Shown here: positions 7,391-58,711 of the stretch, one piece after another
Position numbering within the stretch: the first letter of the stretch is position 1
Layout: each line of letters starts with the position of its first letter
Assembly (NCBI GenBank): GCA_944368155.1
Contig: CALVWW010000004.1
Location: 62,001-126,000 of the forward strand
Origin: an uncultured Clostridia bacterium
Lineage (GTDB): Bacteria; Bacillota; Clostridia; Christensenellales; Borkfalkiaceae
Reading direction: 5' to 3'
Length of the DNA stretch: 64,000 nucleotides
Position numbers and translations under genes: made by a program
Notes under the pieces: generated by a model
Told to the model about the DNA's origin: nothing
The model's database searches: none
Seen by the model: the letters and a program-made list of their open reading frames with translations, nothing else

Positions 7391-7494
7391 TCACGAAAAA
7401 TCTTTTGCTTCGCAAAATCTTTTTCCGTGAGTTTTATAATAAGGTCGCAAAAACGCTTAACGGCCGAACTAAATTCGTCCTTGCATTTTTCGAC
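7391..7494 (+). repeat. Element A copy 1 (two-hairpin repeat)
   Basis: Hairpin A1 is TCACGAAAAATCTTTTGC / GCAAAATCTTTTTCCGTGA (7391-7430). Hairpin A2 (7444-7494) is a degenerate form of the GGCCGAA-CTAAA-TTC two-tier stem inside GTCG/CGAC. An AT-rich stretch without any gene (7495-7600) follows and includes a partial element C-like segment. Confidence 0.75.
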
Positions 7495-7607
7495 ATTATT
7501 TATTTGGAAAATATTTATAAACCCGTTAAAACTTTATAGAAGCAGGCCGAAACCAGCGGTTAAAACGCTTTTCAGATGCGAGCAAGACGCACAGTCTGAT
7601 AAAACTT

Positions 7608-7720
7608 TATAGAAGCGAGTAGAACGAGGAGCGCGTGCGGAAGTCGTGAAGGAGCTTACTTAGAGGTAAGTAACTGAACGAAGCCGTAAGCGCGACAAAG
7701 TTATACGACGCTTATATGAA
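7608..7720 (+). repeat. Element C copy 2
   Basis: About 113 bp, ending 4 bp from the nusG stop codon. It has the core GCGGAAGTCGTGAAGGAG, the CTTAC/GTAAG hairpin and GAAGCCGTAAGCGCGAC, nearly identical to copies 1 and 5. Confidence 0.85.
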
Positions 7721-7723
7721 GTT

Positions 7724-8266
7724 TTAACCTTCAGGGGTTTCAATCTTCTTAATCTGTATATACTCCACTTCCACGTCGGTATTGCGGCCGAAAAGCTCTA
7801 CGTTTACAAGCGCCTTCTGGGCGGTATCGTTCAGCTCCTTAACAGTGCCCTCGAAACCCTCAAGGGGGCCTGCGTCGATGCTCACCCTGTCGCCTACGGC
7901 GAAGTCGGCATTTACAGCCACTTCTTCAAGGCGCATCTTGCGTATCTCCGCCTCCTTCATGGGGATGGGTCTGCCCTGCGGGCCGACAAAACCGGTCACG
8001 CCGCGGGTATTGGTGACCCAATACCACAGCTGGTTGGAATATATCATCTTTATAAAGACATAACAAGGCAACAGCTTGCGCTCAACAAGTTTGCGCTTGC
8101 CGTTTTTCTCCTCGATAGTCGTCTCCATGGGAATCTTCACGTCGAATATCTGCGACTGAAGATTGTTGTTTTCGATAAGCCTTTCAAGGCTGTCCTTCAC
8201 CATGGCCTCGTAGCCCGAATAGGTATGAAGGATATACCAGCAAGGCTGCTGAGCGGTATTCTCCAT
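7724..8266 (-). CDS. nusG: Transcription termination/antitermination factor NusG
   Basis: 180 residues. The N-terminal NGN domain (CWYILHTYSGYEAMVKDSLERLIE, LLPCYVFIKM, TRGVTGFVGPQGRPIPM) binds RNA polymerase; the C-terminal KOW domain (VGDRVSIDAGPLEGFEGTVKELN) contacts Rho or ribosomal protein S10. The gene starts 6 nt after the secE stop, as in the usual rpmG-secE-nusG operon. Its stop is followed within 4 bp by a dispersed element C copy, then 600 bp of repeats before rplK. Confidence 0.97.
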   Translation of the reverse strand: MENTAQQPCWYILHTYSGYEAMVKDSLERLIENNNLQSQIFDVKIPMETTIEEKNGKRKLVERKLLPCYVFIKMIYSNQLWYWVTNTRGVTGFVGPQGRPIPMKEAEIRKMRLEEVAVNADFAVGDRVSIDAGPLEGFEGTVKELNDTAQKALVNVELFGRNTDVEVEYIQIKKIETPEG

Positions 8267-8272
8267 AGATTT

Positions 8273-8506
8273 TTATGCTCCGATGCCGGTGATGAGCCTT
8301 AAAAGAGCCTCAAGGCCGAAATTGATGCCCGTTACCACCACAAGGAATGCAAGAACTACCACCAGAACTACGCCTGTGGACTTTAATACCTTGGGGAATG
8401 TGGGCCAAGTAACTCTTTTGAGCTCAGAGAAAGTCTCCTTGAGTTTTCTGCCCATGCGGACGAAAATATTGGGCTTTTTAACGTCGCCTTTATTTGATGC
8501 TGCCAT
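8273..8506 (-). CDS. secE: Preprotein translocase subunit SecE
   Basis: 77 residues with a single membrane segment (VVLVVVLAFLVVVTGINFGLEAL, residues ~46-68) after the conserved amphipathic segment FSELKRVTWPTFPKVLKST. SecE clamps SecY in the translocon. The lysine-rich N-terminus (KPNIFVRMGRKLKET) faces the cytosol. It lies between rpmG and nusG as in most bacteria, with a GAGG site before the ATG. No tRNA-Trp is seen in the 75-bp gap to rpmG, where many Firmicutes have one. Confidence 0.95.
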   Translation of the reverse strand: MAASNKGDVKKPNIFVRMGRKLKETFSELKRVTWPTFPKVLKSTGVVLVVVLAFLVVVTGINFGLEALLRLITGIGA

Positions 8507-8581
8507 AAAATTAACCTCTTGAATCAGACGCCGGAGCCGGCGCCTTAAGTGCGCAGAAGCCGCGCCGTTAAATGACGGGCC

Positions 8582-8746
8582 TTACTTGGTCTCTTTGTGG
8601 TCGGTGTGCTTTTTGCAGAAGGGGCAGTACTTCGAAATGGTAAGCCTGTCGGGGTCGTTACGCTTATTCTTATAACTGTCGTAATTCCTGTGCTTGCACT
8701 CGGTGCACTCCAAGGTTATTTTGGCTCTCACTGATGCCTTCTTCAT
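8582..8746 (-). CDS. rpmG: 50S ribosomal protein L33, zinc-binding form
   Basis: 54 residues from the ATG at 8746 ([16 protein letters not shown]); an upstream in-frame start would add 27 residues and is rejected because the consensus promoter overlaps that stretch. Two CxxC pairs (CTEC and CPFC) mark the zinc-binding C+ paralogue. L33 is a small 50S protein near the E site. It heads the rpmG-secE-nusG operon, with a GGAG ribosome site. Confidence 0.95.
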
Positions 8747-8798
8747 TGTAGAAAAACTCCGTACAAAAAAATTACACCCCTTCAAGGAATGTGCGAAA

Positions 8799-8827
8799 AT
8801 TTTAGCACATAAAAGGGGCGCTGTCAA
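8799..8827 (-). promoter_or_regulatory. Sigma-A promoter of rpmG-secE-nusG
   Basis: On the minus strand TTGACA, a 17-nt spacer, TAAAAT, about 52 nt above the rpmG start. Confidence 0.9.
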
Positions 8828-8936
8828 TCAAAAAAGGCGGTTTTAAAAAAATTTTGCCCGTTTATTTGACATTTTATATATAATAGTAAAGCATTTGCGG
8901 CGCAGACACAATATATTGTGGAGCTGTGCAGGCAAT

Positions 8937-9476
8937 TTACTTTTCGTATACCTTTCGCGAGAGGATACCTATGTAGGGCAGGTTGCGGTATTTACTTGCA
9001 TAGTCGAGGCCGTAGCCGACTACAAACTCGTCGGGGATATCGAATCCGACATAGTCGGCGGTAATATTTGCCTGCCTGCGCGAAGGTTTATTGAGTATGC
9101 AACACGTCTTTACCGAAAGGGCACCCTCTTTTAAAAGGCGCTCTTTAACAGCCTTTAAAGTGTGGCCGGTATCTATTATATCCTCGGCTATGAGAATATG
9201 CTTGCCCGCGGCCGTAAAATCCTTGGAATATGAAACCCAGACATCTCCCTGAGGGGTAGTTGCATCCTTATAGGACGACGCCTCTATGAAGGAAAGCTCG
9301 AGAGGAATATCTATCGCCCTTATCAAATCGGCGCAGAACACGGCGCCGCCGCGCAATACTCCCATCACAACAAAATCTTTGCCTTCATACTCCCGCGAAA
9401 GCTGCCTGCCCAATTCTGCCACCCTGCTTTTTATCTGCTCTTCGGTGAAAAGTACTCTCTCTATAACTTTATCCAT
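8937..9476 (-). CDS. hpt: Hypoxanthine phosphoribosyltransferase
   Basis: 179 residues, normal for the family. The PRPP-binding loop is ILIAEDIIDTGHTL (residues ~96-109), the purine-binding region DYVGFDIPDEFVVGYGLDYASKYRNLPYIG is near the C-terminus, and VVMGVLRGGAVFCADL forms the N-terminal strand-loop. The enzyme salvages hypoxanthine and guanine to IMP and GMP. The start has a GGGAG site. It follows the secB-like gene by 92 bp and may share its promoter. Confidence 0.95.
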   Translation of the reverse strand: MDKVIERVLFTEEQIKSRVAELGRQLSREYEGKDFVVMGVLRGGAVFCADLIRAIDIPLELSFIEASSYKDATTPQGDVWVSYSKDFTAAGKHILIAEDIIDTGHTLKAVKERLLKEGALSVKTCCILNKPSRRQANITADYVGFDIPDEFVVGYGLDYASKYRNLPYIGILSRKVYEK

Positions 9477-9568
9477 GGTAACTCCCGGCCCGCACGGGGC
9501 AAAATTATTTTAAAATACGGCAGGCGGCATAGCGCGCCGCCCGCCGCAGACCGTTCATCCGGCGGTAA

Positions 9569-10012
9569 TCAGTTGAGTTTGTTCTCTCCGCCGACAGAAA
9601 AAGCGTAAACATCCCTGTCTTCGGGGAAGATGGGGCCGTTGATTACGGGCAGATTAAGCGGCGCAACATAAGCCGAAGCCGTGAGGTTGGTTACCGCCGC
9701 ACGCAGATAGGGGAAGAGCATATTGGTGGCCTCGATGACGAAATCTCTCTCCTGCTCGCCGCCGGAAGCCAAATCTTCCACCTCGAAAGTGCCTACGAGA
9801 GTAACGTTGATATTGAAGGGCTTGGGCTCCGCCTCGGTGCTCTCCACTTTTAAAGAAAGGGCGATGAACATCAGCTTATCGTTATCCTTCACCTTTCTGA
9901 CCTGACGGGAAAACTGCGGTTTGATGTCTAAACGGGCGTTGGGCTCGAGCCTTACCCTGTTCATTTTGAAGGAAAGTTCTTCGGCTCCCACGCCTCTGAA
10001 ATTGATTTTCAT
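9569..10012 (-). CDS. secB: SecB-type protein-export chaperone
   Basis: 147 residues, matching the length and fold signature of SecB (PF02556). The C-terminal half contains the conserved helix and loop LFPYLRAAVTNLTASAYVAPLNLPVING, preceded by beta-strands KLMFIALSLKVEST and FNINVTLVGTFEVED. SecB tetramers hold preproteins unfolded for SecA. SecB is typical of Proteobacteria and sporadic in Clostridia, so this may be a SecB-like general chaperone rather than a true export factor. The ribosome site is GAGGAG. It is followed by hpt. Confidence 0.8.
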   Translation of the reverse strand: MKINFRGVGAEELSFKMNRVRLEPNARLDIKPQFSRQVRKVKDNDKLMFIALSLKVESTEAEPKPFNINVTLVGTFEVEDLASGGEQERDFVIEATNMLFPYLRAAVTNLTASAYVAPLNLPVINGPIFPEDRDVYAFSVGGENKLN

Positions 10013-10058
10013 TGTAAATATCTCCTCAAATCATTTTTTATAGGTGTCAACCATTTAT

Positions 10059-10086
10059 ATTTTAAACCAAAAAGGCCCGGCGGCAA
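10059..10086 (-). promoter_or_regulatory. Probable promoter of secB-hpt
   Basis: On the minus strand TTGCCG, a 16-nt spacer, TAAAAT, about 45 nt above the secB start. The spacer is one nucleotide short, so confidence is moderate. Apart from the promoters I see nothing in 10013-10200. Confidence 0.45.
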
Positions 10087-10200
10087 ACAGATTTGAGGCA
10101 TATTTTTTAAAATTTGGAAATTTTTTATCATCTGCACGCGCGGCAGAGCATTCACAGCCGGCCCCGCCACAAAAAAGCCGACGCATTTTGCGGCAAAGAC

Positions 10201-10229
10201 TTGAAAAACGGCGGCATTTATAATATAAT
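10201..10229 (+). promoter_or_regulatory. Promoter giving a near-leaderless transcript
   Basis: TTGAAA, a 17-nt spacer, TATAAT. The expected transcription start, about 7 nt below the -10 box, falls on the in-frame GTG at 10236. No Shine-Dalgarno site is present before that GTG or the ATG at 10251. Confidence 0.75.
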
Positions 10230-10235
10230 AGGCGC

Positions 10236-12047
10236 GTGAGACCTGTAGATATGGGCAGTTTGCGTAAACTGCTTTTAAAATGTGAAAAACCTTCGCGCTA
10301 TACCGGCGGAGAATACGGCGCCCCGAACCCCGAATGGGGCGCGGGCGGATTCAACTTCTGCATGTGCTTCCCCGACCTGTATGAAGTGGGCATGAGCAAT
10401 CTGGGCATAAAGATTGTTGCGCAGTCGTTTGAAGAGCGCGGCATGTGCGCCGACTTCTGCTTTGCGCCCGCGCACGACTTCGGCAACGGGCTGAAAGAGC
10501 TCGGCGTGCCCCTCTATTCGCTCGCCCTAAAGGCGCCGCTTGCCGACTTCGATATGCTCGGCTTTTCCCTTCAGTATGAACTGAGTTACACAAATGTGCT
10601 GTATATGCTTGAACTTGCGGGCATACCGCTCACGCGCGAAGAGAGAAAGGGCGGAAAGTATCCCCTGATTGCCGCCGGCGGGCCCTGCGCGGTAAACCCC
10701 GAGCCGCTTGCCGACTTCTTCGACATATTTTTTATAGGCGACGGCGAGAGCGTCGACGCCGACGTCGCGGAAATTTTTGTGCAATGCGGCGGAGCAACGG
10801 AACAGTTTTATAGTAAAATAAGCAAACTCGACGGCGTATATGTACCGGCGCTCACCGCGCCCGAATACGACGCTCAGGGCAGGCTGTGCGCATTCGCCGG
10901 CGTAAGCAGGGTAAAAAGATCGCTTATAGAAGAGCTTGATTCGGCCATATTCCCCACCCGAATAGCCGTTGCCAACTGTGAGAGCGTACACGACAGGGCT
11001 GTTCTGGAGGTTATGCGGGGTTGTTACCGCGGGTGCAGGTTCTGCCAGGCCGGCTTTATCTACCGCCCCGTGCGCAAGCGCTCTGTAAGCACGCTCACGG
11101 AGCAGGCCTGCGCGCTGATTGCAAATACCGGCTTCGGCGAAGTCAGCCTGAATTCCCTCTCCACGGGCGACTACGGAAGGCTTCCCGAGCTTTTAAAGAG
11201 CCTTAAAGGCGCGCTTCCGCCCGAGATAACCCTCGCCCTGCCTTCGCTGAGAGTGGACAGCTTCGAAGGGGAATTTGCCCGCGACTCGCGCAAGACATCG
11301 CTGACGTTTGCGCCCGAGGCCGGCACGCAGCGGCTGCGCGACGTAATAAACAAGGATATAACCGAGGAAGAGATATTGCGCGCGGCCGAAAACGCATTCA
11401 ACGCGGGATATTCGGCGGTGAAACTGTATTTTATGATAGGCCTGCCGACGGAAACCGATGAAGATTTGCAGGGAATCTGCGATATATGCGATAAAATACG
11501 CGCAATTTACGGACGGCAAAAGAGGGCGAAGGCGCTGAGAATTTCCGTCTCCGCAGCAACATTCGTTCCAAAGCCGTTCACCCCCTTCCAATGGGAGAGG
11601 CAGATAGGCGAGGAAGAAGTGAAATATAAGCAGAACTACCTCATAAAGCACCTGCCGCGCGGCGTAAAGTTCAGCTGGAGCGCATACTATCCGTCCCTGC
11701 TGGAGGCAGTACTGGCGCGCGGCGACAGAAGCCTTGGGGAAGTGGTGCTCGCCGCCTATAAAAACGGCTGCACGTTCGACGGCTGGGACAACCTGTTCAA
11801 CGAGCAAGGATGGAAAAAAGCCTTCAATGATTGCGGCATACATGCAGAGCAATTTGTTCAGGAAAGAGCTGAAGACGAGCTTTTGCCCTGGGACTTTATA
11901 GACATGATGATAGACAAAAAGTTTTTGCTCTCCGAACGGGAAAAGGCGCTTGCGGGAAAAGTTACCGGGAGCTGTCTTTCCGGCTGCAAGGCGTGCGGCA
12001 TACAGAAACACTGCCCTGCCGCAAGGGGTGAATATGATTGCGTTTAA
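10236..12047 (+). CDS. TIGR03960 family B12-binding-like radical SAM protein
   Basis: 603 residues from the GTG at 10236; ATG 10251 (MGSLRKLLLKCEKPSRYTGG) matches the family N-terminus and is the alternative. The GTG sits at the predicted transcription start, so translation is probably leaderless. Domains: an N-terminal cobalamin-binding-like domain (FCMCFPDLYEVGMSNLG, GFSLQYELSYTNVLYML), a radical SAM core with CYRGCRFC (residues ~263-270) and LTFAPEAGTQRLRDVINK, and a C-terminal Cys cluster (CLSGCKACGIQKHC). The molecular role is unknown. The family is almost always followed by a DUF2344 protein and RNase G, as here, suggesting an RNA or ribosome-linked function. Confidence 0.93.
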   Translation: MRPVDMGSLRKLLLKCEKPSRYTGGEYGAPNPEWGAGGFNFCMCFPDLYEVGMSNLGIKIVAQSFEERGMCADFCFAPAHDFGNGLKELGVPLYSLALKAPLADFDMLGFSLQYELSYTNVLYMLELAGIPLTREERKGGKYPLIAAGGPCAVNPEPLADFFDIFFIGDGESVDADVAEIFVQCGGATEQFYSKISKLDGVYVPALTAPEYDAQGRLCAFAGVSRVKRSLIEELDSAIFPTRIAVANCESVHDRAVLEVMRGCYRGCRFCQAGFIYRPVRKRSVSTLTEQACALIANTGFGEVSLNSLSTGDYGRLPELLKSLKGALPPEITLALPSLRVDSFEGEFARDSRKTSLTFAPEAGTQRLRDVINKDITEEEILRAAENAFNAGYSAVKLYFMIGLPTETDEDLQGICDICDKIRAIYGRQKRAKALRISVSAATFVPKPFTPFQWERQIGEEEVKYKQNYLIKHLPRGVKFSWSAYYPSLLEAVLARGDRSLGEVVLAAYKNGCTFDGWDNLFNEQGWKKAFNDCGIHAEQFVQERAEDELLPWDFIDMMIDKKFLLSEREKALAGKVTGSCLSGCKACGIQKHCPAARGEYDCV

Positions 12048-12624
12048 ATACACCAAGACCGACGGCGCGGAATACATTTCGCACCTCGACCTTTTAAGGC
12101 ACATAGACCGCACTTTAAGGCGCGCCGGCATAGAGGTGGAATACAGCCAGGGCTTCCACAGGCACCCGAGAATTTTTATGGGCAACCCGCTTGCCCTCGG
12201 CGTGCGCTCCATAAGCGAATTCTGCGCCGTAGATACAAAATTCGACGGCGACTTTATGTGTGAATTCAACTCCCGCTCGCCGGACGGGGTTAAGTGCCTT
12301 GCGGCAAAGATTACGGATATAAACCCCAACTTCGCCGAGAGCATTACTGCCTGCAGTTATGAAACTGAGGGCATAAACGCCTTCGACCCCGGGCTTGTCC
12401 TTGAGCGGGAAAAGATAATCATAACCGACCTGCGCGGACGCACGGTAGATATCCGTCCGAGGATATGCGCCGTTGAATGGCAGAATAAAAAACTTAATTT
12501 TACTCTGCACTGCGGAGAAAACAACCTGCGCCCCGACCTGTTCTGCAACTTTTTATCTGATGCGTTCGGCGGCGAGGCGGCATACATACTCAAGACCGGG
12601 AGTTTCGGCGACGGGGTATTTTAA
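12034..12624 (+). CDS. TIGR03936/DUF2344 family protein
   Basis: 196 residues from the ATG at 12034, which overlaps the end of the radical SAM gene by 14 nt and follows AAGGGG. The family signature is clear: YISHLDLLRHIDRTLRRAGIEVEYSQGFHRHPRI and GNPLALGVRSISEF. In many genomes this domain is fused to the preceding radical SAM protein, so the two act together. The function is unknown. An alternative longer start inside the upstream gene has no ribosome site. Confidence 0.92.
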   Translation: MIAFKYTKTDGAEYISHLDLLRHIDRTLRRAGIEVEYSQGFHRHPRIFMGNPLALGVRSISEFCAVDTKFDGDFMCEFNSRSPDGVKCLAAKITDINPNFAESITACSYETEGINAFDPGLVLEREKIIITDLRGRTVDIRPRICAVEWQNKKLNFTLHCGENNLRPDLFCNFLSDAFGGEAAYILKTGSFGDGVF

Positions 12625-12687
12625 AATAAAAATTAAAATTCTATAATATCTGATATGCGGGCGGAAAAACCCGCATCCCGATGAACA

Positions 12688-40110: not shown

Positions 40111-40216
40111 GCCGAAAAAGCGCAAGGCGGAATTTACTTTCGCCGTTAAGCGCTTTTACGACCTTTTATCTCCCTCACGGAAAAAGATTTTGCCGCAGGC
40201 AAAAGATTTTTCGTGA
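40111..40216 (-). repeat. Element A copy 2 (reverse orientation)
   Basis: Minus-strand order: hairpin TCACGAAAAATCTTTTGCC/GGCAAAATCTTTTTCCGTGA (40175-40216), then the two-tier stem inside GTCG/CGGC with outer arms AAAGCGC/GCGCTTT and inner GGCG/CGCC (40111-40162). It lies 3 bp from the stop of the second ABC ATPase gene. 39948-40110 contains no gene. Confidence 0.8.
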
Positions 40217-40218
40217 AC

Positions 40219-41334
40219 TCAATGGCGTACTATATCGCTTTCAACCGCAAGTTCGGTCTCCTTATCGTACAGATAAGCAGCCTTGAAGGGCACTACGAAA
40301 TCGCACTCTGCGCCCCTTGCAGGAGTATCGTGAGGGTTGACCTTGAGAATGGTGTTTTTACCGTCTACCGTAGCATATACGTTGGTAACGTCGCCGAGAA
40401 GTTCGGTGAGCTCTACGGTTGAGGTGAAGGTATACCCTTCGGGCGCCTTTTCACCCTCCTTCACAAGTTCAATGCCCTCGGGTCTGAACGCAAACACAAC
40501 TTCCTTACCCTCGAGAGATTCAACGTCTTTGACTATGGGAGCTATGTCGAGAGCATTCTCATCATCTCCTTCGATAACAAGCTTGCCGTTTTCAACCTTG
40601 CCGTTGAGGAAGTTCATGGGAGGCTCGCCTATGAAACCTGCAACAAAGAGGTTGCGGGGATAGAAATAAAGTTCGAAAGGCGTGCCCACCTGCTGAACCA
40701 CGCCGAGCTTCATAACGACTATCCTGTCGGACATGGTCATAGCTTCGGTCTGGTCATGGGTAACGTAAATAGTGGTCGCTCCGATGCCGCGGTGAATCTG
40801 CTTGATTTCCGAACGCATGGTAACGCGCTGCTTTGCGTCGAGGTTGGAGAGAGGCTCGTCCATAAGGAAGATATTAACCTTTCTTATAAGCGCACGGCCT
40901 ACCGCAACACGCTGCTGCTGACCGCCGGAGAGCTGACGGGGGAACCTTTCGAGATAGTCGGTAAGACCGAGAATCTTTGCGGTTGCCTGAACCTTTTCCT
41001 CGATTATGTCGGCGTCGATACCCTCGAGCATGAGGCCGAAAGCAAGGTTTTCATACACAGTAAGATGAGGATAGAGCGCGTACGACTGGAATACCATCGC
41101 TATGCCTCTCTCCTTGGAGGTCATCTGATTGGCAAGCTTGCCGTCTATGTAGAACTCACCGGAGGAGATTTCCTCAAGGCCGGCAATCATACGAAGAGTT
41201 GTCGACTTACCGCAACCGGATGAACCTACGAGGCAGATGAATTCGCCGTCGTTGATTTCAAGGTTGAAGTCGTGTACGGCGTGGAAGCCGTTCGGATAAA
41301 CTTTGTTTACGTCTTTTAAGATAAGATGTGACAT
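40219..41334 (-). CDS. ABC transporter ATP-binding protein, MsmK/UgpC type (second copy)
   Basis: 371 residues. Walker A GSSGCGKST, signature LSGGQQQRVAVGRAL, Walker B IFLMDEPLSNLD, YVTHDQTEAMTMSDRI, then a C-terminal MalK-like TOBE region. It resembles the ATPase at 24215 but is clearly a separate gene with a different C-terminus. No permease or binding protein adjoins it. MsmK-type ATPases often serve several importers, so this may be the general one and the other the pectin-specific one. Only AAAAA-rich sequence precedes the ATG, so the ribosome site is weak. Confidence 0.93.
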   Translation of the reverse strand: MSHLILKDVNKVYPNGFHAVHDFNLEINDGEFICLVGSSGCGKSTTLRMIAGLEEISSGEFYIDGKLANQMTSKERGIAMVFQSYALYPHLTVYENLAFGLMLEGIDADIIEEKVQATAKILGLTDYLERFPRQLSGGQQQRVAVGRALIRKVNIFLMDEPLSNLDAKQRVTMRSEIKQIHRGIGATTIYVTHDQTEAMTMSDRIVVMKLGVVQQVGTPFELYFYPRNLFVAGFIGEPPMNFLNGKVENGKLVIEGDDENALDIAPIVKDVESLEGKEVVFAFRPEGIELVKEGEKAPEGYTFTSTVELTELLGDVTNVYATVDGKNTILKVNPHDTPARGAECDFVVPFKAAYLYDKETELAVESDIVRH

Positions 41335-41362
41335 TTTTTTATTTTCCCCTATATATTAAAGT

Positions 41363-41465
41363 TCACGCAAATCTTTTTGCTTCGCAAAAATCTTTGCCGT
41401 GAGGTTTTATTTTGTCGAGGAAGTACTTAACGGCTGAACTAAATTCAGCCTTGTACTTCCTCGGC
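41363..41465 (+). repeat. Element A copy 3
   Basis: Hairpin TCACGCAAATCTTTTTGC/GCAAAAATCTTTGCCGTGA (41363-41402), then GTCGAGGAAGTAC/GTACTTCCTCGGC (outer) and GGCTGAA/TTCAGCC (inner) at 41414-41465. All stems are intact, with bases different from other copies. Confidence 0.85.
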
Positions 41466-42683: not shown

Positions 42684-42695
42684 AAGACCTCCGTC

Positions 42696-42780
42696 TCGTC
42701 GAAAATCTTTTGCCTTGCAAAATCTTTTCGACGAATTTTGATTTTGGTCGTAATACGGCTTAACGGCCGAACTAAATTCT
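42696..42780 (+). repeat. Element A copy 4 (3'-truncated)
   Basis: Hairpin TCGTCGAAAATCTTTTGC/GCAAAATCTTTTCGACGA is perfect (42696-42734) with TCGTCG/CGACGA replacing TCACGG/CCGTGA. Then only the left half of the two-tier stem, to CTAAATTC. Confidence 0.8.
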
Positions 42781-43205
42781 TCTCATGCGTCGATTTGCGG
42801 GTTGCCGCCGCATTCGGTCACCGCTCGGGCAGAAACATATGCCCTCGCTCATCTCGCAGCGCATAAACAGTGGATATCCACTGTTTATAGAATTGCTCAG
42901 CTCGTCCTTGCCGCATTTCGGCATTATTTATCTTTAATACGTTTCACGAAATTCTCGCGCAGGCTGCGCGAGAGCTTTGCCCGCTGCTCTGCCGAGGTTC
43001 CCGAAGGGAAACGGCAGATGCGCAGGTATGCGCAAATCGGGTCCTGCTGCGGCGTCATAATTCATTTTGAATTTATTGCGGTAAAAAGTTGCACCTTGCA
43101 AAATTCTTTACGCGCGGGCTAACGCGCTTAATTTTGCTGCGGGAAAACCTGCTTGCGCACATTATTTATTTTGAAATAAATCTTCACTTTATTATTCGCT
43201 TGGAT
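42781..43205. repeat. Repeat-mosaic region without genes
   Basis: It contains a perfect 24-bp palindrome centred on TGGATATCCA (42864-42887), matching the AACAGCGG hairpin of element B copy 4 with compensated bases. It also holds a TCGCGCAG/CTGCGCGA hairpin (about 42955-42973) and segments shared with 48808-48890 (GCGCAGGTATGCGCAAATCG). No open frame is convincing. Confidence 0.6.
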
Positions 43206-43210
43206 AACCC

Positions 43211-43336
43211 TCGAAGATGCGAGCAGTACGAGGCGTGTGCGGAAGCCGTGAGGGAGTTTACAAAGACGTAAATGACCGAACGGAACCGTAAACACAACAA
43301 AGTAATGCGAAGCATATGCGAGGGAAAGCGGAGCCA
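43211..43336 (+). repeat. Element C copy 4
   Basis: A full unit with hairpin TTTAC (43257-43261) / GTAAA (43268-43272), ending GCGAGGGAAAGCGGAGCC 7 bp from the stop of the next minus-strand gene. Confidence 0.85.
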
Positions 43337-45216: not shown

Positions 45217-45245
45217 AAAAAATTTTCTCCTTGAATATATCATAT

Positions 45246-45420
45246 TCACGAATTTTTCGCGCGGGCCGCGCACGAAAAATTCCGTGAGTTTAAGAAACCA
45301 AGTTTCTTTGGCGGTATTTTTAAGCGCCCACCATTATAGAAATGCCGCCATTCACTTCCGGTGAGCCCGCTTGCGCGGCAAATTGTGTCGCGCTATCGGC
45401 GGGAAACCCGCCTTGCGCAA
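45246..45420 (+). repeat. Element B copy 2
   Basis: Hairpins in order: TCACGAATTTTTCGCGCG/CGCGC...CGTGA (45246-45287), AGAAAC-CAA-GTTTCT, GGCGGTATTT/AAATGCCGCC (G-U pair), TTCAC-TTCC-GGTGA, GGCGGG-AAA-CCCGCC. It starts 29 bp above the kdgK start codon, leaving room for its ribosome site. Confidence 0.8.
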
Positions 45421-45475
45421 AATAATTATTTTAGAATAAATTTTTATCTTATTTATAAAAGCCCATAAATGGTTC

Positions 45476-45596
45476 ATAGAAGCAAGTAAGACAAGGAGCG
45501 CGCGGAAGTCGTGAAGGAGCTTACTTAGAGGTAAGTGACTGAACGAAGCCGTAAGCGCGACAACGTATTACGCCGCTTATATGAAGCCGTAGCGGA
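45476..45596 (+). repeat. Element C copy 5
   Basis: A full unit, hairpin CTTAC/GTAAG, ending 1 bp from the kdgA stop codon. Nearly identical to copy 2 through GAAGTCGTGAAGGAGC and GAAGCCGTAAGCGCGAC. Confidence 0.85.
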
Positions 45597-48695: not shown

Positions 48696-48710
48696 AAAAC
48701 GCTCCTTGAT

Positions 48711-48885
48711 TCACAAAAATTTCGCGCGGGCCGCGCACTAAATTTTTCGTGAGTTTGAGGGGCTCTGCCCCTCTTGCCACGATTCTCAGGGCCCTCAATT
48801 ATGTAATCGTGGCAATTCACCCCGCTCAGGCGCAGGTATGCGCAAATCGAAGCCTGCTGCGGCGGGAAACCCGCCTTGCGCACAA
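48711..48885 (+). repeat. Element B copy 3
   Basis: Hairpins: TCACAAAAATTTCGCGCGG/complement (48711-48752), GAGGGGC-TCT-GCCCCTC (48757-48773), TTGCCACGATT/AATCGTGGCAA (48774-48815) and GGCGGG-AAA-CCCGCC (48861-48875). The second and third stems differ from copies 1 and 2 on both arms. Confidence 0.8.
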
Positions 48886-48896
48886 ATTACTTTGTT

Positions 48897-49000
48897 TCGC
48901 CGCAATCTTTTTGCAGAGCAAAAATCTTTCGGCGAGATTTATTCTTTTGTCGTAAAAACACTTAACGGCCGAACTAAATTCGGCCTTGTGTTTTTTCGGC
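48897..49000 (+). repeat. Element A copy 5
   Basis: Hairpin TCGCCGCAATCTTTTTGC/GCAAAAATCTTTCGGCGA (48897-48935), then GTCGTAAAAACAC/GTGTTTTTTCGGC around GGCCGAA-CTAAA-TTCGGCC (48949-49000). Confidence 0.85.
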
Positions 49001-49097
49001 GCAATTTTTTATATTTTCGCATAATTTTTTATATATGCAAAATTTGGGCAACCTGCTTGCGCTGCAAACTGGGTCGCGCTAACGCGTGGAAACCCTG

Positions 49098-49166
49098 CTT
49101 GCGCACAAATTACTTTGTTTCGCCGCAATCTTTTTGCAGAGCAAAAATCTTTCGGCGGGATTTATT
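49098..49166 (+). repeat. Near-exact direct repeat of 48875-48943, with element A hairpin only (copy 6)
   Basis: About 69 bp from CTTGCGCACAAATTAC to GATTTATT is repeated 223 bp from its first occurrence with one base change. It contains the TCGCCGC...CTTTCGGCG hairpin (49120-49158) without the two-tier stem. 49001-49097 holds further element B-like fragments and no gene. Confidence 0.85.
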
Positions 49167-52340: not shown

Positions 52341-52367
52341 GGGTCAACGCTCCTGAAAGACAAACTC

Positions 52368-52862: not shown

Positions 52863-52925
52863 CATTTGCTCCGGATATATTATAGCGCAATACGTCGTCT
52901 TTTGCAACCATGAAAATAAAATAGT

Positions 52926-52959
52926 GCGGCGGGCGGCCGCAGAGACGGCCGCCCGCCGC
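52926..52959 (-). terminator. Terminator of the second MATE gene
   Basis: GCGGCGGGCGGCCG pairs perfectly with its complement around CAGAGA; on the minus strand ACTATTTTATTTT follows. Confidence 0.75.
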
Positions 52960-53003
52960 ATAATCACCAGGTTAAAATAAATTTCTTAAGGACGGGGCAC
53001 ATT

Positions 53004-54392
53004 TCATTCTCTTATGCTTTCCCCGGCGGCGTTCGCACGCTTTTCGCGGCGAAGTTTTTTAAGGCAGGGGATATTTAAATAAAATGCAAGCGCCACGCCC
53101 GCGCCCAGCGTCCAGCCGATGGCCCATGCCCAGCCCACGCCGGCAAAACCGAGGGGCCCCGTCAGAATAAATACCAGCGCCACACGCAGTATAAGGTCGG
53201 TAAATGTGCTTATAGTGAAACCGAGGTTGCCGCCGGAGCCGCGCACAGCGTCGTCCGCCACAACCTTTACGTTGACGACGAGGAAGAATGGCGCGACAAT
53301 AGTCACATACTGCGCGCCGCTCTCTATTGCGAGCGCGGTGTCGCCCTCGGCCGACATGAACAGCCCGACGAGCGGTTCGGCAAATATCACGCACACTGCA
53401 ACGAACACCGCCGTCATTATCGTGGAGATAACCAGCGCCGCGCGGAAACCTTCGCGTATGCGCGCATACTTACCCGCGCCGTAGCATTGAGAGACGAAGT
53501 TGGTCAGCCCGTTTGCACACGTGCAGAAGCAGGTGGTACAGAACACTATCAGCTTTACGCCGGCGGTGAAGCCGTCGGTAATTCCCAGCCCCTGGACGTT
53601 TGCAAGCTCGTTTATACGTATCTGAATGACGAGGTTGCCTACCGACACAAAGCTGTTCTGAAGCATGACGGGCAACGCAAGTATGAGCAGAGTCTTTAAG
53701 ACAGCGGGGACGAAAATATGCGGTTTTTCTTCACATTCAAGGCGCAGTATACGCCTGAGCACAAAAACAAGGGTGAGTATGCAGGCCGCACTCTGCGCGA
53801 TAAAGGTGGCCCACGCCACGCCCGCAACTCCCCACGGCCCCACCATGACGATGTCGAGCACAATATTGCTGACCGAAGAGATTACGAGAAATATAAACGG
53901 CGTGCGGCTGTCGCCCAAGGCAGAAAATATACCTGTGCCGAGGTTGTAAATAATGAGAAAGGGCAGGCCGAAATAGTAGATATTGAGGTAGGTCACGCTT
54001 TCGTCGAGCGCCTCGGCGGGCGTTTTGAGCGCGGCGAGAAGAGGCTCGCAGCTTAAAACACCCACAATCAGAAGAATGACCGAAAGCGCCGCGAAGGAAA
54101 TAAGCGCCGTAAATACGGCCGTTTTTACACCCGAATTGTTTTTCGCGCCGAAAAGACGGGAGACGAGCACCGCACAGCCCGCATTTGCGCCGAGAGCAAC
54201 AGCCATGAGGATATTGACTATTGAATTGGACGCACCGATTGCCGTGAGCGCCGTTTCACCCGCAAATTTGCCGGCGATAACCGTGTCGGCAAGAGTGTAA
54301 AGCTGTTGAAATACAGCACTGCCGAAGAGGGGCAATATGTAAATAAGCAGCACCTTAAAGGGCTTGCCTACAGTTAAATCGGTGTTTTTCAT
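53004..54392 (-). CDS. MATE family efflux transporter (second copy)
   Basis: 462 residues from the ATG at 54392 (KNTDLTVGKPFKVLLIYILPLFGSAVFQQLYTLADTVIAGKF), preceded by GCGGAG. Twelve membrane segments. TALTAIGASNSIVNILMAVALGANAGCAVLVSRLFGA is the family's conserved first-repeat region. It is only distantly similar to the copy at 49224. An element A copy ends 14 bp above the start codon. Substrate unknown. Confidence 0.92.
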   Translation of the reverse strand: MKNTDLTVGKPFKVLLIYILPLFGSAVFQQLYTLADTVIAGKFAGETALTAIGASNSIVNILMAVALGANAGCAVLVSRLFGAKNNSGVKTAVFTALISFAALSVILLIVGVLSCEPLLAALKTPAEALDESVTYLNIYYFGLPFLIIYNLGTGIFSALGDSRTPFIFLVISSVSNIVLDIVMVGPWGVAGVAWATFIAQSAACILTLVFVLRRILRLECEEKPHIFVPAVLKTLLILALPVMLQNSFVSVGNLVIQIRINELANVQGLGITDGFTAGVKLIVFCTTCFCTCANGLTNFVSQCYGAGKYARIREGFRAALVISTIMTAVFVAVCVIFAEPLVGLFMSAEGDTALAIESGAQYVTIVAPFFLVVNVKVVADDAVRGSGGNLGFTISTFTDLILRVALVFILTGPLGFAGVGWAWAIGWTLGAGVALAFYLNIPCLKKLRREKRANAAGESIRE

Positions 54393-54405
54393 AATAACTC
54401 CGCAT

Positions 54406-54507
54406 TCACGGAAAATCTTTTGCCTGCGGCAAAATCTTTTCCCGTGAGATATTCTGTCGTAAAAGCGCTTATCGGGCAAACTGAATTTGCCCTTGCGCTT
54501 TTTCGGC
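54406..54507 (+). repeat. Element A copy 7
   Basis: Hairpin TCACGGAAAATCTTTTGCC/GGCAAAATCTTTTCCCGTGA (54406-54447), then GTCGTAAAAGCGC/GCGCTTTTTCGGC around GGGCAAA-CTGAA-TTTGCCC (54456-54507). 54508-54700 holds AT-rich fragments of the same mosaic and no gene. Confidence 0.85.
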
Positions 54508-54705
54508 GATATTATTTTTTAAATGTGTTGCGGCAAAAATTTTTTGCTTGCAAAACTCTTACGCTCGCGCCGGCTCGCTGAGTTTTACTGCGGAAAACTT
54601 TGACGGTAACGAATTATATCACCGCCCCCTGCAGTTGTAAAGCAACTGCAATAAATTTTTTACCGATATTTTTATACTTAATTTCCCTCTCCTTTATAAA
54701 ACGCT

Positions 54706-54733
54706 GCGGGTGCGCAAAATTTTGCGCACCCGC
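54706..54733. terminator. Loop-less 28-bp palindrome below the 66-residue gene
   Basis: GCGGGTGCGCAAAA and TTTTGCGCACCCGC abut, followed by CTTTTT on the plus strand. It lies 21 bp past the stop at 54755. Confidence 0.55.
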
Positions 54734-54754
54734 CTTTTTACGTAAAGAAATAAA

Positions 54755-54955
54755 TCATAATTCGGTTGCGGAAAGAATAAATTTTTGCCCGTTGAAAAAT
54801 TCAATTTGCAGACCGCCGCCGCACATATTTGTCTTTCCGAGAAAATAATCTTCTATCAGCGGCCGCAGTTCCTCCGCAATAGCCGAAGCCGTAATTTTGT
54901 CTTCGTGAGCGGCGGCATAAACCGCCTGGAAGTTTTCTTCGCAAATGTTCTTCAT
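54755..54955 (-). CDS. Small hypothetical protein divergent from an XRE regulator
   Basis: 66 residues, soluble, with a good AAGGAGA site before its ATG. I do not recognise the family. It has an N-terminal helical part (NICEENFQAVYAAAHEDKITASAIAEEL) and a C-terminal strand part (GGGLQIEFFNGQKFILSATE). It is divergent from the XRE-type gene across a 142-bp spacer with an inverted TTTAGCTG motif, which suggests the regulator controls it. Confidence 0.6.
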   Translation of the reverse strand: MKNICEENFQAVYAAAHEDKITASAIAEELRPLIEDYFLGKTNMCGGGLQIEFFNGQKFILSATEL

Positions 54956-55008
54956 AATAAAAATCTCCTTGATATTTTTTCTTAAGAGCGCTCATTGAAT
55001 GTATTTAT

Positions 55009-55037
55009 ATTTTAACAGCTAAACAAGAATAATTCAA
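55009..55037 (-). promoter_or_regulatory. Promoter of the 66-residue gene
   Basis: On the minus strand TTGAAT, a 17-nt spacer, TAAAAT; the spacer contains one arm of the inverted repeat described at 55016-55059. Confidence 0.7.
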
Positions 55038-55059
55038 GAAAATTATGTTTATTTAGCTG
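55016..55059. promoter_or_regulatory. Candidate XRE operator
   Basis: CAGCTAAA (55016-55023) and TTTAGCTG (55052-55059) form an 8-bp inverted repeat spaced by 28 bp. One arm lies in the promoter of the 66-residue gene and the other by the likely -35 region of the XRE gene. Confidence 0.5.
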
Positions 55060-55097
55060 ATAATTTTTTGTAATAAAAGGTCTTTGTTTGGAGAATT

Positions 55098-55532
55098 ATG
55101 TCGAATTTTTCAGAACGGCTTTCAGAGCTTATGTTTGACGAAGGGTTAAACATGACACAGCTTGGAGAAAAACTTGGTTGCGGCGAAGCGGCAGTCAGCA
55201 GATACTGCGCGGGCGAAGCGTTGCCGACCTATGAATTTTTAATAAAAATAGCCGATTATTTTAACGTAACCTGCGATTTTGTATTGGGACTTGAGGACGA
55301 AAGCAAGGCAACAGTTTTTGCCTCGCCTCCTCCATTTGCAGAACAGTTTAAAAAGGTCTGCGAAGAAAACAAAATATCGCGCTATAAACTTCATAGAAAG
55401 ACGGGAATAGCCGAATCTGTAATGCGGTATTGGGCGCAGGGAAAAACAAAGCCGTCTGTTCCCAATCTGATACTTCTCGCCGGAAAGGGATTTGGCTGTA
55501 CAGTCGATTTCCTCGTGGGCAGGGAGCTTTGA
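55098..55532 (+). CDS. XRE family regulator with two helix-turn-helix units
   Basis: 144 residues. Residues 5-65 form a classic HTH_3 domain (LSELMFDEGLNMTQLGEKLGCGEAAVSRYCAGEALPTYEFLIKIADYFNVTCDFVLGL). Residues ~85-144 repeat the pattern (FKKVCEENKISRYKLHRKTGIAESVMRYWAQGKTKPSVPNLILLA), so the protein is a tandem duplication of the fold. It probably binds an inverted repeat in the divergent promoter region. GGAG precedes the ATG; a terminator follows. Confidence 0.85.
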   Translation: MSNFSERLSELMFDEGLNMTQLGEKLGCGEAAVSRYCAGEALPTYEFLIKIADYFNVTCDFVLGLEDESKATVFASPPPFAEQFKKVCEENKISRYKLHRKTGIAESVMRYWAQGKTKPSVPNLILLAGKGFGCTVDFLVGREL

Positions 55533-55550
55533 ACTTGCTTAAAAACAGCC

Positions 55551-55582
55551 GCGGAGCGCGCAAAAAATTTTGCGCGCTCCGC
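55551..55582 (+). terminator. Terminator of the XRE gene
   Basis: GCGGAGCGCGCAAAA and its perfect complement with a 2-nt loop, then TATTTTAT. In 55583-55859 I see only the clpB leader: no CIRCE or CtsR box, a weak TTTAAA-16-TATAAA promoter near 55721, and a GC-rich GCCGCC/GGCGGC hairpin above the ribosome site. Confidence 0.7.
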
Positions 55583-55859
55583 TATTTTATCAGCGGCAAT
55601 TTTTTTATTTAAAACCCAAAAACGCCGCTCAATTAAATGTTCTGTTTAAAAATTATTCCCTCCGCAGAGCTGCGCGGCGGGAAATTTTTATTTTTGAAAA
55701 TTACACCCCCTCTTTGTTGTTTAAATTGCCGCGGAATGAGTTATAAACAATATGTAAAAAAGATTTTACGCATAGTTTTGCCGCCGCGCCGCATTAAACG
55801 GCTTTGCGGACGCGGGCGGCGCATCTGTGCGGCAACGCCCCTTGAAGGAGGTCAAATTT

Positions 55860-58433
55860 ATGAACAGCAACCGATTCACTCAGAACAGTATTCAGGCAAT
55901 AAACAATTGCGAAAAGATTGCAAACGAATACGGCAATACCGAGATAATGCCGGTACACATACTCTTTGCCCTTCTGGACAAAGACGGACTCATTCCGCGC
56001 ATACTCTCCCGCCGCGGCGCCGACGTGGGCGGACTGACTTCGGCCGCAAAAGACGAGATTGAAAAACTGCCGAGAAGTTCCTCCCGCGGCAACGTTTTCC
56101 TCTCACCCGCGGCAAACCGCATTTTCAATAATTCAGAAAAACTTGCCGGGCGCATGAAGGACGATTATATTTCAGTCGAACACCTCTTTTTATCGCTGCT
56201 GGACGAAAACGATGAGGCATGCGAAAAGCTTTTCAAACGCTTCGGCATTACCAAAGACAGCTTTTTGATAGGACTTAAAGAGGTGCGCGGCAACACCAAC
56301 GTGACTACGGATAACCCCGAAGACACCTACGAAGCGCTGGAAAAATACGGCACCGACCTCACCGCCGCCGCAAAAAAGCACAAACTGGAGCCCGTTATAG
56401 GCCGCGACGAAGAGATACGAAATGTTATACGCATACTCTCGCGAAAGACCAAGAACAACCCCGTTTTAATAGGCGAACCGGGCGTGGGCAAGACGGCGAT
56501 TGCCGAAGGGCTTGCACAGCGAATAGTAAAGGGCGACGTGCCCGAGGGGCTGAAGGATAAAACGCTGTTTTCGCTCGATATGGGCGCGCTCATTGCGGGC
56601 GCGAAGTACCGCGGCGAATTTGAAGAGAGATTGAAGGCCGTTTTGCAGGAAGTAACAAAGAGCGAAGGCCGCATACTTTTATTCATAGACGAACTGCACA
56701 CGGTAGTCGGCGCGGGCAAGACAGACGGCGCCATGGACGCGGGCAATCTTTTAAAGCCGCTGCTTGCGCGCGGCGAACTGCACTGCATAGGAGCGACCAC
56801 TTTAGACGAATACAGAAAATATATCGAAAAAGACGCCGCGCTCGCCCGCCGCTTCCAGCCGGTTATGGTGGATGAGCCGACGGTCGAAGATACAATTTCC
56901 ATTCTGCGAGGACTTAAAGAGCGCTTTGAAATTTTTCACGGCGTGCGCATACACGACGACGCATTAGTTGCCGCCGCTACCCTTTCGAACCGCTATATTA
57001 CCGACCGTTTCCTTCCCGACAAGGCCATAGACCTCGTCGACGAGGCGGCGGCAATGATACGAACGGAGATAGATTCCATGCCCTCGGACATGGATGATTT
57101 GAACCGCAAAATACTTCAGCTTGAAGTTGAGGAAAAGGCTCTTTCGAAAGAGAAAGACAATATTTCCGAAGCGAGGCTGGAGGCGCTCAAAAAAGAGCTT
57201 GCCGAATACAAGGAGCGCTTTGCCGAAATGAAGGCAAAGTGGCAGGACGAAAAGCAGGCCATACAGAGCGAAAAGGAGCTTAAAGAGAAGGCCGACAGTT
57301 TAAAAGCTGAAATAGATTCTGCCACCAACAGCGGCGACTTCGAGCGCGCGGCGCGCCTCAGATACGGTGAACTGCCCGCCATTGAAAAGCAATTGGAAAA
57401 AGCCAAGGCGCAGAACGCCGGCAGAAAGGGCGACATATTGCAGGACGAAGTGACGGAAGAGCAGATTAACCAGATAATATCGCGCTGGACGGGTATACCA
57501 GTGGCAAGGTTAAAAGAGGGTGAGCGCGAAAAAATTCTGCACCTGCCCGAAGATTTGCACAAACGCGTAGTCGGCCAGAACGAGGCCGTTGAAAAGGTTT
57601 GCGATGCAATACTGCGTTCGCGCGCGGGAATATCCGACCCCAACAGGCCGATAGGCTCCTTCCTCTTCCTCGGCCCCACCGGCGTGGGCAAGACCGAACT
57701 TGCAAAGGCGCTCGCCGAAAACCTGTTCGACGACGAAAAAAACATCGTGCGCATAGATATGAGCGAATACATGGAAAAATTCTCAGTCTCCCGTCTTGTG
57801 GGCGCGCCTCCGGGATATGTGGGCTATGAAGAGGGCGGCACTTTGACCGAGGCCGTACGCAGAAAGCCCTATTCCATAGTGCTCTTCGACGAGATTGAAA
57901 AGGCTCACCCCGACGTGTTCAATATCCTGTTGCAGATACTCGACGACGGAAGGATAACCGACTCGCAGGGGCGCACGGTGGACTTTAAAAACACCATAAT
58001 AATTCTCACCTCCAACCTCGGCGCGACGGATATTACCGAGGGAATTGAGGGCGGTGAAATTTCGAAGGCTGCGCAGGACAGGGTTTACGCCATATTAAAG
58101 CAGGCTTTCCGCCCCGAATTTTTGAACAGGCTGGACGAAATAATATTGTTCAGGCCGCTCACCCGCGAGAATATCGGCGGCATTGTGAATATTCAGCTTA
58201 ACCGCCTTGCTGCAAGGCTGAAGGATGAAAATCTTGAGCTTGAAATAACTGCGGCGGCAAAGGACTACGTAGCCGAAAACGGGTACGACAACGTTTACGG
58301 CGCCCGCCCTTTGAAGAGATTTATACAGAAGAATATCGAAACACCCATTGCGCGGTATATCATTAGAAACAATCCCGAAGCGGGCACAAAGATAACTGTC
58401 GACGCGGGCAATGACGGCATAGTTTTAAAGTAA
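55860..58433 (+). CDS. clpB: ATP-dependent disaggregase ClpB
   Basis: 857 residues from the ATG at 55860, preceded by AAGGAGG. The N-domain has two Clp repeats ([27 protein letters not shown]). AAA1 has Walker A GEPGVGKT (residue ~200) and [34 protein letters not shown] coiled middle domain ([16 protein letters not shown] ... [17 protein letters not shown]) precedes AAA2 with [14 protein letters not shown] and [26 protein letters not shown]. ClpB resolves protein aggregates with DnaK. The M-domain distinguishes it from ClpC, although it lacks a UVR motif to suggest otherwise. It stands alone, with no dnaK nearby. Confidence 0.95.
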
Positions 58434-58484
58434 TTGGGCGGTATATATGCCCCGATTAAAGGGTATTTACAGGCAATTTAAAAC

Positions 58485-58520
58485 GGCCCCGGTGCGAAAA
58501 AATCGCATCGGGGCCTTAAT
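58485..58520 (+). terminator. clpB terminator
   Basis: GGCCCCGGTGCGA / TCGCATCGGGGCC, one G-U pair, A5 loop, then TTAATTTTATTT. Confidence 0.8.
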
Positions 58521-58542
58521 TTTATTTCGCCTTAAATATATA

Positions 58543-58588
58543 GTTCACAAAACTGCCGCGCAAGAATTTGTGCGGCAGTTTTGTGAAC
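58543..58588. terminator. 17-bp hairpin with TTCAC/GTGAA ends
   Basis: GTTCACAAAACTGCCGC and GCGGCAGTTTTGTGAAC pair perfectly. Its ends (TTCAC, GTGAA) match the first hairpin of elements A and B, and it adjoins element A copy 8, so it may be a further member. Confidence 0.65.
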
Positions 58589-58604
58589 TATTATAATTAT
58601 TAAT

Positions 58605-58711
58605 GCCGAAAAAAGATAAGGCGGGATTTACTCCCGCCGTTAAATCTTTTTACGACTTACCCTAAAACCTCACGGAAAAAGATTTTGGCATAGCCAAAAG
58701 ATTTTTCGTGA
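58605..58711 (-). repeat. Element A copy 8 (reverse orientation)
   Basis: Minus-strand order: TCACGAAAAATCTTTTGGC/GCCAAAATCTTTTTCCGTGA (58670-58711), then GTCGTAAAAAGAT/ATCTTTTTTCGGC around GGCGGGA-GTAAA-TCCCGCC (58605-58656). It ends 5 bp from the stop of the dehydrogenase gene. Confidence 0.85.

Follow-up and report, generated by a model that had tools for sequence, protein, structure and literature searches.

The window analysed here, a 64,000-nt stretch of DNA from a clostridial gut bacterium, carries between its genes a short two-hairpin repeat whose copies share a layout rather than an exact sequence. This raises the question of whether the repeat is a structured RNA kept by selection, a mobile insertion, or a palindrome whose arms are matched by the way in which they mutate. 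The initial annotation had listed eight copies of this repeat (element A) and quoted the sequences of their arms. The arm sequences are correct and all eight copies lie where they had been placed, with those at 40111 and 58605 reversed, but only six of the eight are complete (42695 and 49120 are partial). Coordinates are summarized in Table 1, together with those of a longer, related element B.

Table 1. Element A copies and element B occurrences in the 64,000-nt window, with the gene context of each where it was noted.
Feature	Position	Strand	Structure and neighbouring elements	Gene context
Element B	7200..7383	+	Directly before the element A copy at 7390	Called start of gene 6693-7118 is 81 nt away
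Element A, full copy	7390..7494	+	Hairpin 1 7390-7431, linker, hairpin 2 7444-7494, then AT-rich tail	
Element A, full copy	40111..40217	-	Hairpin 1 40174-40217, hairpin 2 40111-40162	Hairpin 1 begins 1 nt past the stop of gene 40219-41334
Element A, full copy	41362..41465	+	Hairpin 1 41362-41403, hairpin 2 41414-41465	27 nt upstream of gene 40219-41334
Element A, degenerate copy	42695..42794	+	Hairpin 1 42696-42734 intact; hairpin 2 broken, no closure	
Element B	45245..45433	+	Longer; TTCAC-footed first hairpin; final hairpin resembling the inner portion of element A hairpin 2	
Element B	48709..48893	+	Before the element A copy at 48896	
Element A, full copy	48896..49000	+	Hairpin 1 48897-48935, hairpin 2 48949-49000; preceded by element B	
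Element A, hairpin 1 alone	49120..49158	+	Second half of a local duplication (49088-49166 96% like 48865-48943)	
Element A, full copy	54405..54507	+	Hairpin 1 54405-54448, hairpin 2 54456-54507	Adjoins the ribosome-binding site of minus-strand gene 53004-54479 (by eye; called start too far upstream)
Element A, full copy	58605..58712	-	Hairpin 1 58669-58712, hairpin 2 58605-58656	Hairpin 1 begins 4 nt past the stop of gene 58717-59517

Element A is about 105 nt long. Its first hairpin has a foot of the TTCACG/CGTGAG type and is joined by a short linker to a second hairpin, footed by GTCG/CGGC, after which comes an AT-rich tail of roughly 13-18 nt. In the six full window copies, 93.2% of 221 cells are standard pairs, two-sided changes occur at 12 of 37 pairs, and the covariation score was matched by none of 500 shuffles. 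The initial annotation had proposed a covariance-model search of this and related genomes followed by a covariation test, and both were carried out. The model gave 75 raw matches in the source genome at E<=0.1, antisense and weak ones included, and of 37 genomes sampled from the same genus (inferred to be Candidatus Coproplasma) 19 contained matches. Among 131 aligned matches from the source genome and its relatives, two-sided changes appear at 36 of the 37 pairs, in 661 cells compared to 169 in shuffles. Eight antisense or doubtful matches were then removed, which left 123 copies for the covariation, unpaired-base, wobble, shared-placement, motif, and identity analyses; for covariation, a further 15 that were identical, gappy, or at least 95% similar were dropped. 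Across the 108 non-redundant copies that remained, covariation exceeds a phylogeny-aware null at 20 of 37 pairs and at 0 of 5115 non-pairs, in a purpose-written, R-scape-like test (not R-scape itself) on an alignment fitted to the covariance model. Pairing and covariation thus bear out the initial description of a real intergenic two-hairpin repeat with compensating changes in its arms.

Several unpaired bases are conserved as well, namely those of a TTAAC/TT internal loop (TTAAC 85-94%, TT 82-85%), a TAAA loop (80-98%), and an extruded C in hairpin 1 (79%), and a T.G pair is a conserved feature of both hairpin feet. Since the arms of each hairpin remain complementary though sequence differs between copies, these data suggest that shape, more than exact sequence, is preserved. 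Outside the feet (35 pairs, 3573 cells), G.U and A.C cells are equally rare (56 and 74, respectively), so the two strands look alike, and the earlier idea that a G-U pair at the GTCG/CGGC base hints at the transcribed strand fails. The L10 leader of this genus, used as an RNA control, has 24 G.U and 0 A.C in 8 pairs, a small sample in which a single pair accounts for 23 of the 24; a tRNA control comprised 3 tRNAs and was too small to use.

The distribution of element A is narrow. Counts range from 0 to 52 matches per genome within the genus, one of 24 genomes from other families has a match, which is weak, and an order-wide search of 248 genomes found matches in six: the source, four of the same genus, and one weak match in another genus of the family. 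Element A is nearly confined to one genus. It had not been recognized as a named element, and Rfam agrees: at the gathering score the only match is the L10 leader (2783-2936), with no family for element A, and all others of the 24 matches at E<=5 fall below the gathering score. A pattern scan of IMG/VR returned 0 matches, phage and plasmid records contained none, and no description of element A was found among open-licence PubMed Central papers.

Copies sit at stop codons and ribosome-binding sites, including between genes of ribosomal-protein operons, and occur in both orientations relative to the gene. Of 41 hairpin-1 ends in the source genome, 19 lie no more than 15 nt from a called gene, compared to 4 of 44 for the other end (Fisher p 1.7e-4). 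These values derive from 46 of the 75 raw matches, chosen by score and with overlapping antisense matches left out, of which 44 were analysed; these 44 include two later judged doubtful (C13:14336 and C20:10034), and genes were called with a purpose-written ORF script whose starts are uncertain. For adk, for example, the called start lies 4 nt from the C31:10162 copy, and the real distance is 67 nt. At the locus of the 41362 copy, C. stercoravium, C. stercoripullorum, and G002 each carry a copy displaced by no more than 3 nt, and G016 has a B-like left end there. At the S7 gene, five genomes (G005, G006, G014, G017, and G021) have a copy within 12 nt of the same place, which would also fit a functional cis element. 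A simple terminator scan flags the hairpin cores of some copies (e.g., 48967-48985 on the plus and 58638-58620 on the minus strand). A terminator role was set aside because, as judged by eye, a separate terminator-like hairpin comes after at least two of the copies (C18:8463 and C14:9011).

Comparison of orthologous spacers reveals both filled and empty sites. The secY-adk spacing is 2-46 nt (stop codon counted) in 13 of 32 sequences, and a complete element is present in two, G000 and C. stercoravium (this comparison has no G029 row). Between infA and rpmJ, 12 of 28 readable sequences have 23-49 nt, with five zero-length rows left out of the count, and a complete element is found in G000, G020, and G021. 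Near-identical copies also occur in unrelated surroundings. The G016 copy on contig C4 shares 98% identity over 106 nt with that on C20, while the 20 nt adjoining the element on the left are only 25% alike and likeness on the right is limited to the short AT-rich tail. G021 has such a pair as well, on C175 and C61, with 96% identity and unrelated flanks. Among the 42 copies compared in the source genome, no dispersed pair exceeds 0.89 identity, and closer pairs are neighbours. From the filled and empty sites together with the near-identical copies in unrelated flanks, element A is an insertion that has moved.

It is also one member of a mosaic of related hairpin elements between genes. The place of the element B at 7200-7383 is taken by element A in G002, G016, and G032, and at the locus of the 42695 copy C. 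stercoravium has an element B between the gene and the copy. At four loci, one species has an element B between the gene and A, in the position that A occupies in other species. A consensus fold of B from 20 full-length copies of 30 matches is incomplete. The sequence GAACTAAATTC occurs 5 times in the window vs. 0.08 expected, one of these (41558) inside an element B.

We favour, with moderate confidence, the reading that element A is a small, non-autonomous, MITE- or CIR-like insertion element with a conserved fold, nearly restricted to one genus. The mobilizing enzyme would recognize the element when folded, either as single-stranded DNA or as a cruciform, in which case the arms need only stay complementary. 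Element A would insert where the spacer is short and AT-rich, at gene ends and ribosome-binding sites, with hairpin 1 facing the gene, and the related elements B and C would land in the same places, which would produce chains. After landing, element A probably persists as an intercistronic mRNA hairpin that is tolerated or mildly useful, and template switching may help to keep its arms matched. More tentatively, the A, B, and C types may constitute a shape-reading insertion system with shared folded ends and unpaired motifs, arriving serially at the same gene edges with hairpin 1 gene-ward and mobilized by an enzyme other than a Y1 transposase or an integron integrase. Integron integrases were above the cut-off in 0 of 37 genomes; weak matches occurred in 35 of the 37 and likewise in all 14 control genomes. 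Orientation relative to GC skew was unbiased (18 and 26, p 0.29), which counts against a replication-linked single-strand mechanism, as such a mechanism predicts a bias.

The initial annotation took arms that change together as the mark of selection on a folded structure. The arms do covary, but this is not proof by itself, as a polymerase switching template within a quasi-palindrome copies one arm into the other, and covariation would then not show selection on the fold. Such copying during replication has been described for RNA stems, in the account cited here (PMC8794818). That the arms are matched mainly by mutation of this kind is a possibility we hold only loosely, and it is compatible with mobility. 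Rare wobble intermediates without strand preference fit it, as do 16 non-independent same-locus comparisons, in which 104 differing pairs comprise 61 two-sided paired, 7 one-sided paired, and 36 unpaired in at least one copy; however, element-by-element replacement at a site would equally give multi-base jumps, and template switching would be expected to remove the TTAAC/TT internal loop, the extruded C, and the T.G feet too, and all of these are conserved. Somewhat less probable is a cis-acting RNA, with hairpins at the coding end or before the ribosome-binding site that stabilize or punctuate mRNA and are kept by selection. Positions at stop codons, at ribosome-binding sites, and within ribosomal-protein operons, as well as the shared S7 placement in five genomes, agree with such a role, but the patchy presence within the genus, the complete secY-adk element in so few sequences, the two orientations relative to the gene, and the lack of an excess of G.U over A.C, against the small L10 leader control, do not.

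Among mobile elements, an ordinary MITE, mobilized through cut-and-paste transposition by a DDE enzyme, would be consistent with how long and how numerous the copies are, with their place between genes, and with the dispersed near-identical copies of G016 and G021, but we consider it unlikely given the lack of a clear terminal inverted repeat and of a target-site duplication. Both were sought in 122 of the 123 copies. For duplications of k = 2-5, no offset was above the shuffled 95% value, k = 6 equalled it, and k = 8 was seen in 2 of 122 copies; the mean ungapped terminal-repeat score was 5.48 vs. 4.85 (sd 0.09) for shuffled starts, a slight difference with AT-rich ends. Movement as a REP/REPIN element by a RAYT (Y1) transposase is very improbable. 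The GTCG motif at a hairpin foot and the extragenic palindromes recall that class, but this GTCG is paired to CGGC and is not a free GTAG or CGTC tag. No Y1 match was found in the source genome or in any of the four genomes richest in element matches (G000, G002, G016, and G021), though G016 and G021 hold near-identical copies. Within the genus, Y1 occurs in 11 of 37 genomes, 5 of 19 with element A and 6 of 18 without, which indicates no link, and no element A match was found around the 6 Y1 genes inspected out of 16 Y1 matches.

Beyond what was first noted, the analysis adds insertion at gene edges, near-confinement to one genus, and kinship with other hairpin elements. Element A offers a large natural set of hairpins with variable arms, fixed unpaired motifs, and filled and empty sites in many relatives, and such a set allows selection on a fold, structure-specific mobility, and template switching to be tested directly against one another. 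It also cautions that covariation by itself does not make an RNA gene.

Integron attC sites likewise conserve a fold while arm sequence varies and unpaired bases matter, and element A resembles them in that its fold is kept and its arms vary. The attC ends carry the motif RYYYAAC ... GTTRRRY; RYYYAAC followed by GTTRRRY is present in only 3 of 123 element A copies, and none of the 37 genomes has an integron integrase above the cut-off. REPs, as outlined in one report, are many-copy extragenic palindromes of 20-40 bp, often downstream of coding regions, with an unpaired GTAG or CGTC tag and a RAYT link for the GTAG type (PMC3733652). Element A differs from REP/REPIN in its length of about 105 nt, its paired foot, and the lack of a RAYT link. 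The Caulobacter CcrM-associated intergenic repeats (CIR) are described as small and strictly intergenic, with two long inverted repeats forming two arms and a linker, GANTC exposed in a loop, and properties conserved between the genera Caulobacter and Brucella (PMC2229807, PMC10969869). Element A shares with CIR the two hairpin arms, the linker, and the intergenic position, a likeness by description; GANTC occurs anywhere in only 5 of 123 copies. According to one of these accounts, repeat elements other than CIR fold by end-to-end pairing, and bacterial MITEs such as RUP are about 100-200 bp, non-autonomous, intergenic, and present in many copies, with terminal repeats and TA target sites in RUP (PMC2229807). 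Unlike RUP, element A forms two separate hairpins without a clear terminal repeat or duplication; like MITEs, it is short, multi-copy, and intergenic, with near-identical copies in unrelated flanks (in G016 and G021, not in the source genome).

Element A, the two-hairpin intergenic repeat, had been noted at eight places in the window, with arms that change together. All eight copies are present, six of them in full; hairpin 1 survives at 42695 but hairpin 2 is broken, and 49120 is hairpin 1 only, inside a local duplication. In the six full copies, 93.2% of the proposed structure is paired, both sides have changed at 12 of 37 pairs, and the covariation score was reached by none of 500 shuffles. 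Across 131 model matches (126 distinct), 93.4% of 4383 cells are paired, both-side changes occur at 36 of 37 pairs, and cells changed on both sides number 661 vs. a shuffle mean of 169 (slid controls, ≤127); this alignment leans towards the structure because it was fitted to the model. Covariation above phylogenetic expectation was borne out by a custom-written test with a phylogeny-aware null of R-scape type (not R-scape itself) on 108 non-redundant rows, in which 20 of 37 pairs reached E < 0.05, compared to 0 of 5115 non-pairs. All four pairs of the GTCG/CGGC foot, which hardly vary, are among the 17 that failed.

The unpaired parts are less variable than the arms. The internal loop has TTAAC at 85–94% per base opposite TT at 82–85%, the loop TAAA is conserved at 80–98%, and the extruded C in hairpin 1 at 79%. 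T.G is found at the two feet (67 of 108 cells at one, 75 of 106 at the other). The initial annotation took a G-U pair as a hint of the transcribed strand, but the counts outside the feet speak against it: of 3573 cells there, 56 are G.U and 74 A.C, which shows no preference for either strand. A ribosomal protein L10 leader (window 2783–2936, 81.7 bits) served as a small RNA control; its same-genus alignment gave 24 G.U and no A.C, a weak control, as its pairs number only 8 and one of them holds 23 of the 24 G.U.

In the own genome (G000; 1.73 Mb, 31 contigs, the window being C4:62001-126000), a covariance model from the six full window copies (R1) gave 75 raw matches at E ≤ 0.1, some antisense or weak. 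At E ≤ 0.01, 20 of 61 genomes matched: 19 of the 37 in the genus (counting the own genome) and, weakly, 1 of the 24 belonging to other families. A second model (R2, 101 rows) matched 6 of 248 genomes in an order-wide sample, namely the own genome, four of the genus and one from another genus of the family; weak matches may escape here because scoring was limited to 15 candidates per genome. Public records with the loop pattern comprise 19 stretches from Candidatus Coproplasma stercoravium, C. stercoripullorum and uncultured Clostridia/Clostridiales, from which the genus is probably Candidatus Coproplasma. The initial annotation did not recognise a named element here; Rfam gave no match at gathering score, and no match was found in phage or plasmid records, or in IMG/VR by pattern scan. 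In G154 (locus L200), from another genus of the family, an A-like first hairpin lies flush with the secY stop codon, with B-like parts behind.

Filled and empty sites show that element A is an insertion. The secY-adk gap measures 2–46 nt from the secY stop codon in 13 of 32 sequences, while a complete A lies 4 nt past the stop in G000 and C. stercoravium; G016 has only A's second hairpin, and several other sequences carry different repeats. The infA-rpmJ gap is 23–49 nt in 12 of 28 readable sequences. Here A stands directly before the ribosome-binding site in G020 and G021, in G000 the longer element B takes that position and A follows, C. stercoravium carries B, and G016 has B plus remains of A.

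The element has also moved. In G016, the C4 and C20 copies share 98% identity over 106 nt, and the one on C26 matches them at 96% (C20) and 94% (C4); their left flanks are 25–40% alike over the adjoining 20 nt, and their right flanks share a short AT tail before diverging or meeting other repeat modules. Three G021 copies (C175, C61, C168) are 93–96% identical, with only ~14 nt common on the right. These comparisons define the unit as roughly TTCACG to CGGC plus a 13–18 nt tail. The closest dispersed pair among 42 own-genome copies is 0.89 identical, so movement there is not recent. Two G015 loci are 98% alike over 200 bp, from 4 nt before the element to a further hairpin, which could also come from recombination between adjoining paralogous genes. 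A further hairpin module of arm-TTAAC-stem-arm design lies behind the tail of several copies (L115 ~8700-8822, L118 ~8290-8412, the G016 copies), and three-copy head-to-tail arrays of A occur at G000:C20:2253-2577, G002:C3:221388-221695, G002:C5:95482-95830 and G006:C44:3145-3468.

For gene context, 46 of the 75 own-genome matches were chosen by score and non-overlap (44 usable). A called gene lies ≤15 nt from the hairpin-1 end in 19 of 41 cases, against 4 of 44 for the opposite end (Fisher p = 1.7e-4); one of these four is a wrong start call. Short original spacers explain part of this closeness, but not the asymmetry. Where hairpin 1 is not at the gene, another element often lies between them. 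Chains with B on the gene side are visible across species at four loci: at three, B lies nearer the gene than A in G000, and A occupies that place in G002, G016 and G032, in G016 and G021, and in G020 and G021, respectively; at the fourth, C. stercoravium has B before A and G000 has A there. Upstream of gene 40219–41334, A sits at nearly the same base in G000, G002, C. stercoravium and C. stercoripullorum, as does a B-like left end in G016; at the S7 gene, A is placed alike, to within 12 nt, in five genomes. Element B has several hairpins whose arms change together, the first TTCAC-footed and the last often of TTAAC/TT type; none of its 30 matches in 448 kb of own DNA falls within called genes. 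By eye, repeat family C lies shortly past the secY stop codon in several relatives.

Further repeat elements in the window.
Feature	Position	Length and form
Element B	7200-7383	~175-200 nt
Element B	45245-45433	~175-200 nt
Element B	48709-48893	~175-200 nt
Repeat family C	5745-5869	~125 nt, one long hairpin
Repeat family C	7607-7731	~125 nt, one long hairpin
Repeat family C	43209-43333	~125 nt, one long hairpin
Repeat family C	45472-45596	~125 nt, one long hairpin

Same-locus copies (16 non-independent comparisons) differ at 104 pairs, of which 61 changed on both sides and still pair, 7 changed on one side and still pair, and 36 are unpaired in at least one copy. This pattern is compatible with selection and fast compensation, with element-by-element replacement, or with template switching as described in PMC8794818; the irregularities conserved within the structure speak against template switching as the full explanation.

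The own genome lacks a Y1 transposase; 11 of 37 genomes of the genus have one, with no relation to element A (5 of the 19 that carry A and 6 of the 18 that do not), and none of six Y1 loci examined has an element A match. No integron integrase reached the cut-off in the 37 genomes, and the A copies showed no target-site duplication, clear terminal repeat or strand bias. Element A is real, nearly confined to the genus, mobile and two-hairpin, with a conserved fold; we can only infer by what route it moves and in which form, DNA or RNA, its fold works. Its architecture comes closest to that of CIR elements, as described in PMC2229807 and PMC10969869, and its life-style to that of MITEs; the tested features do not allow it to be placed in either class.
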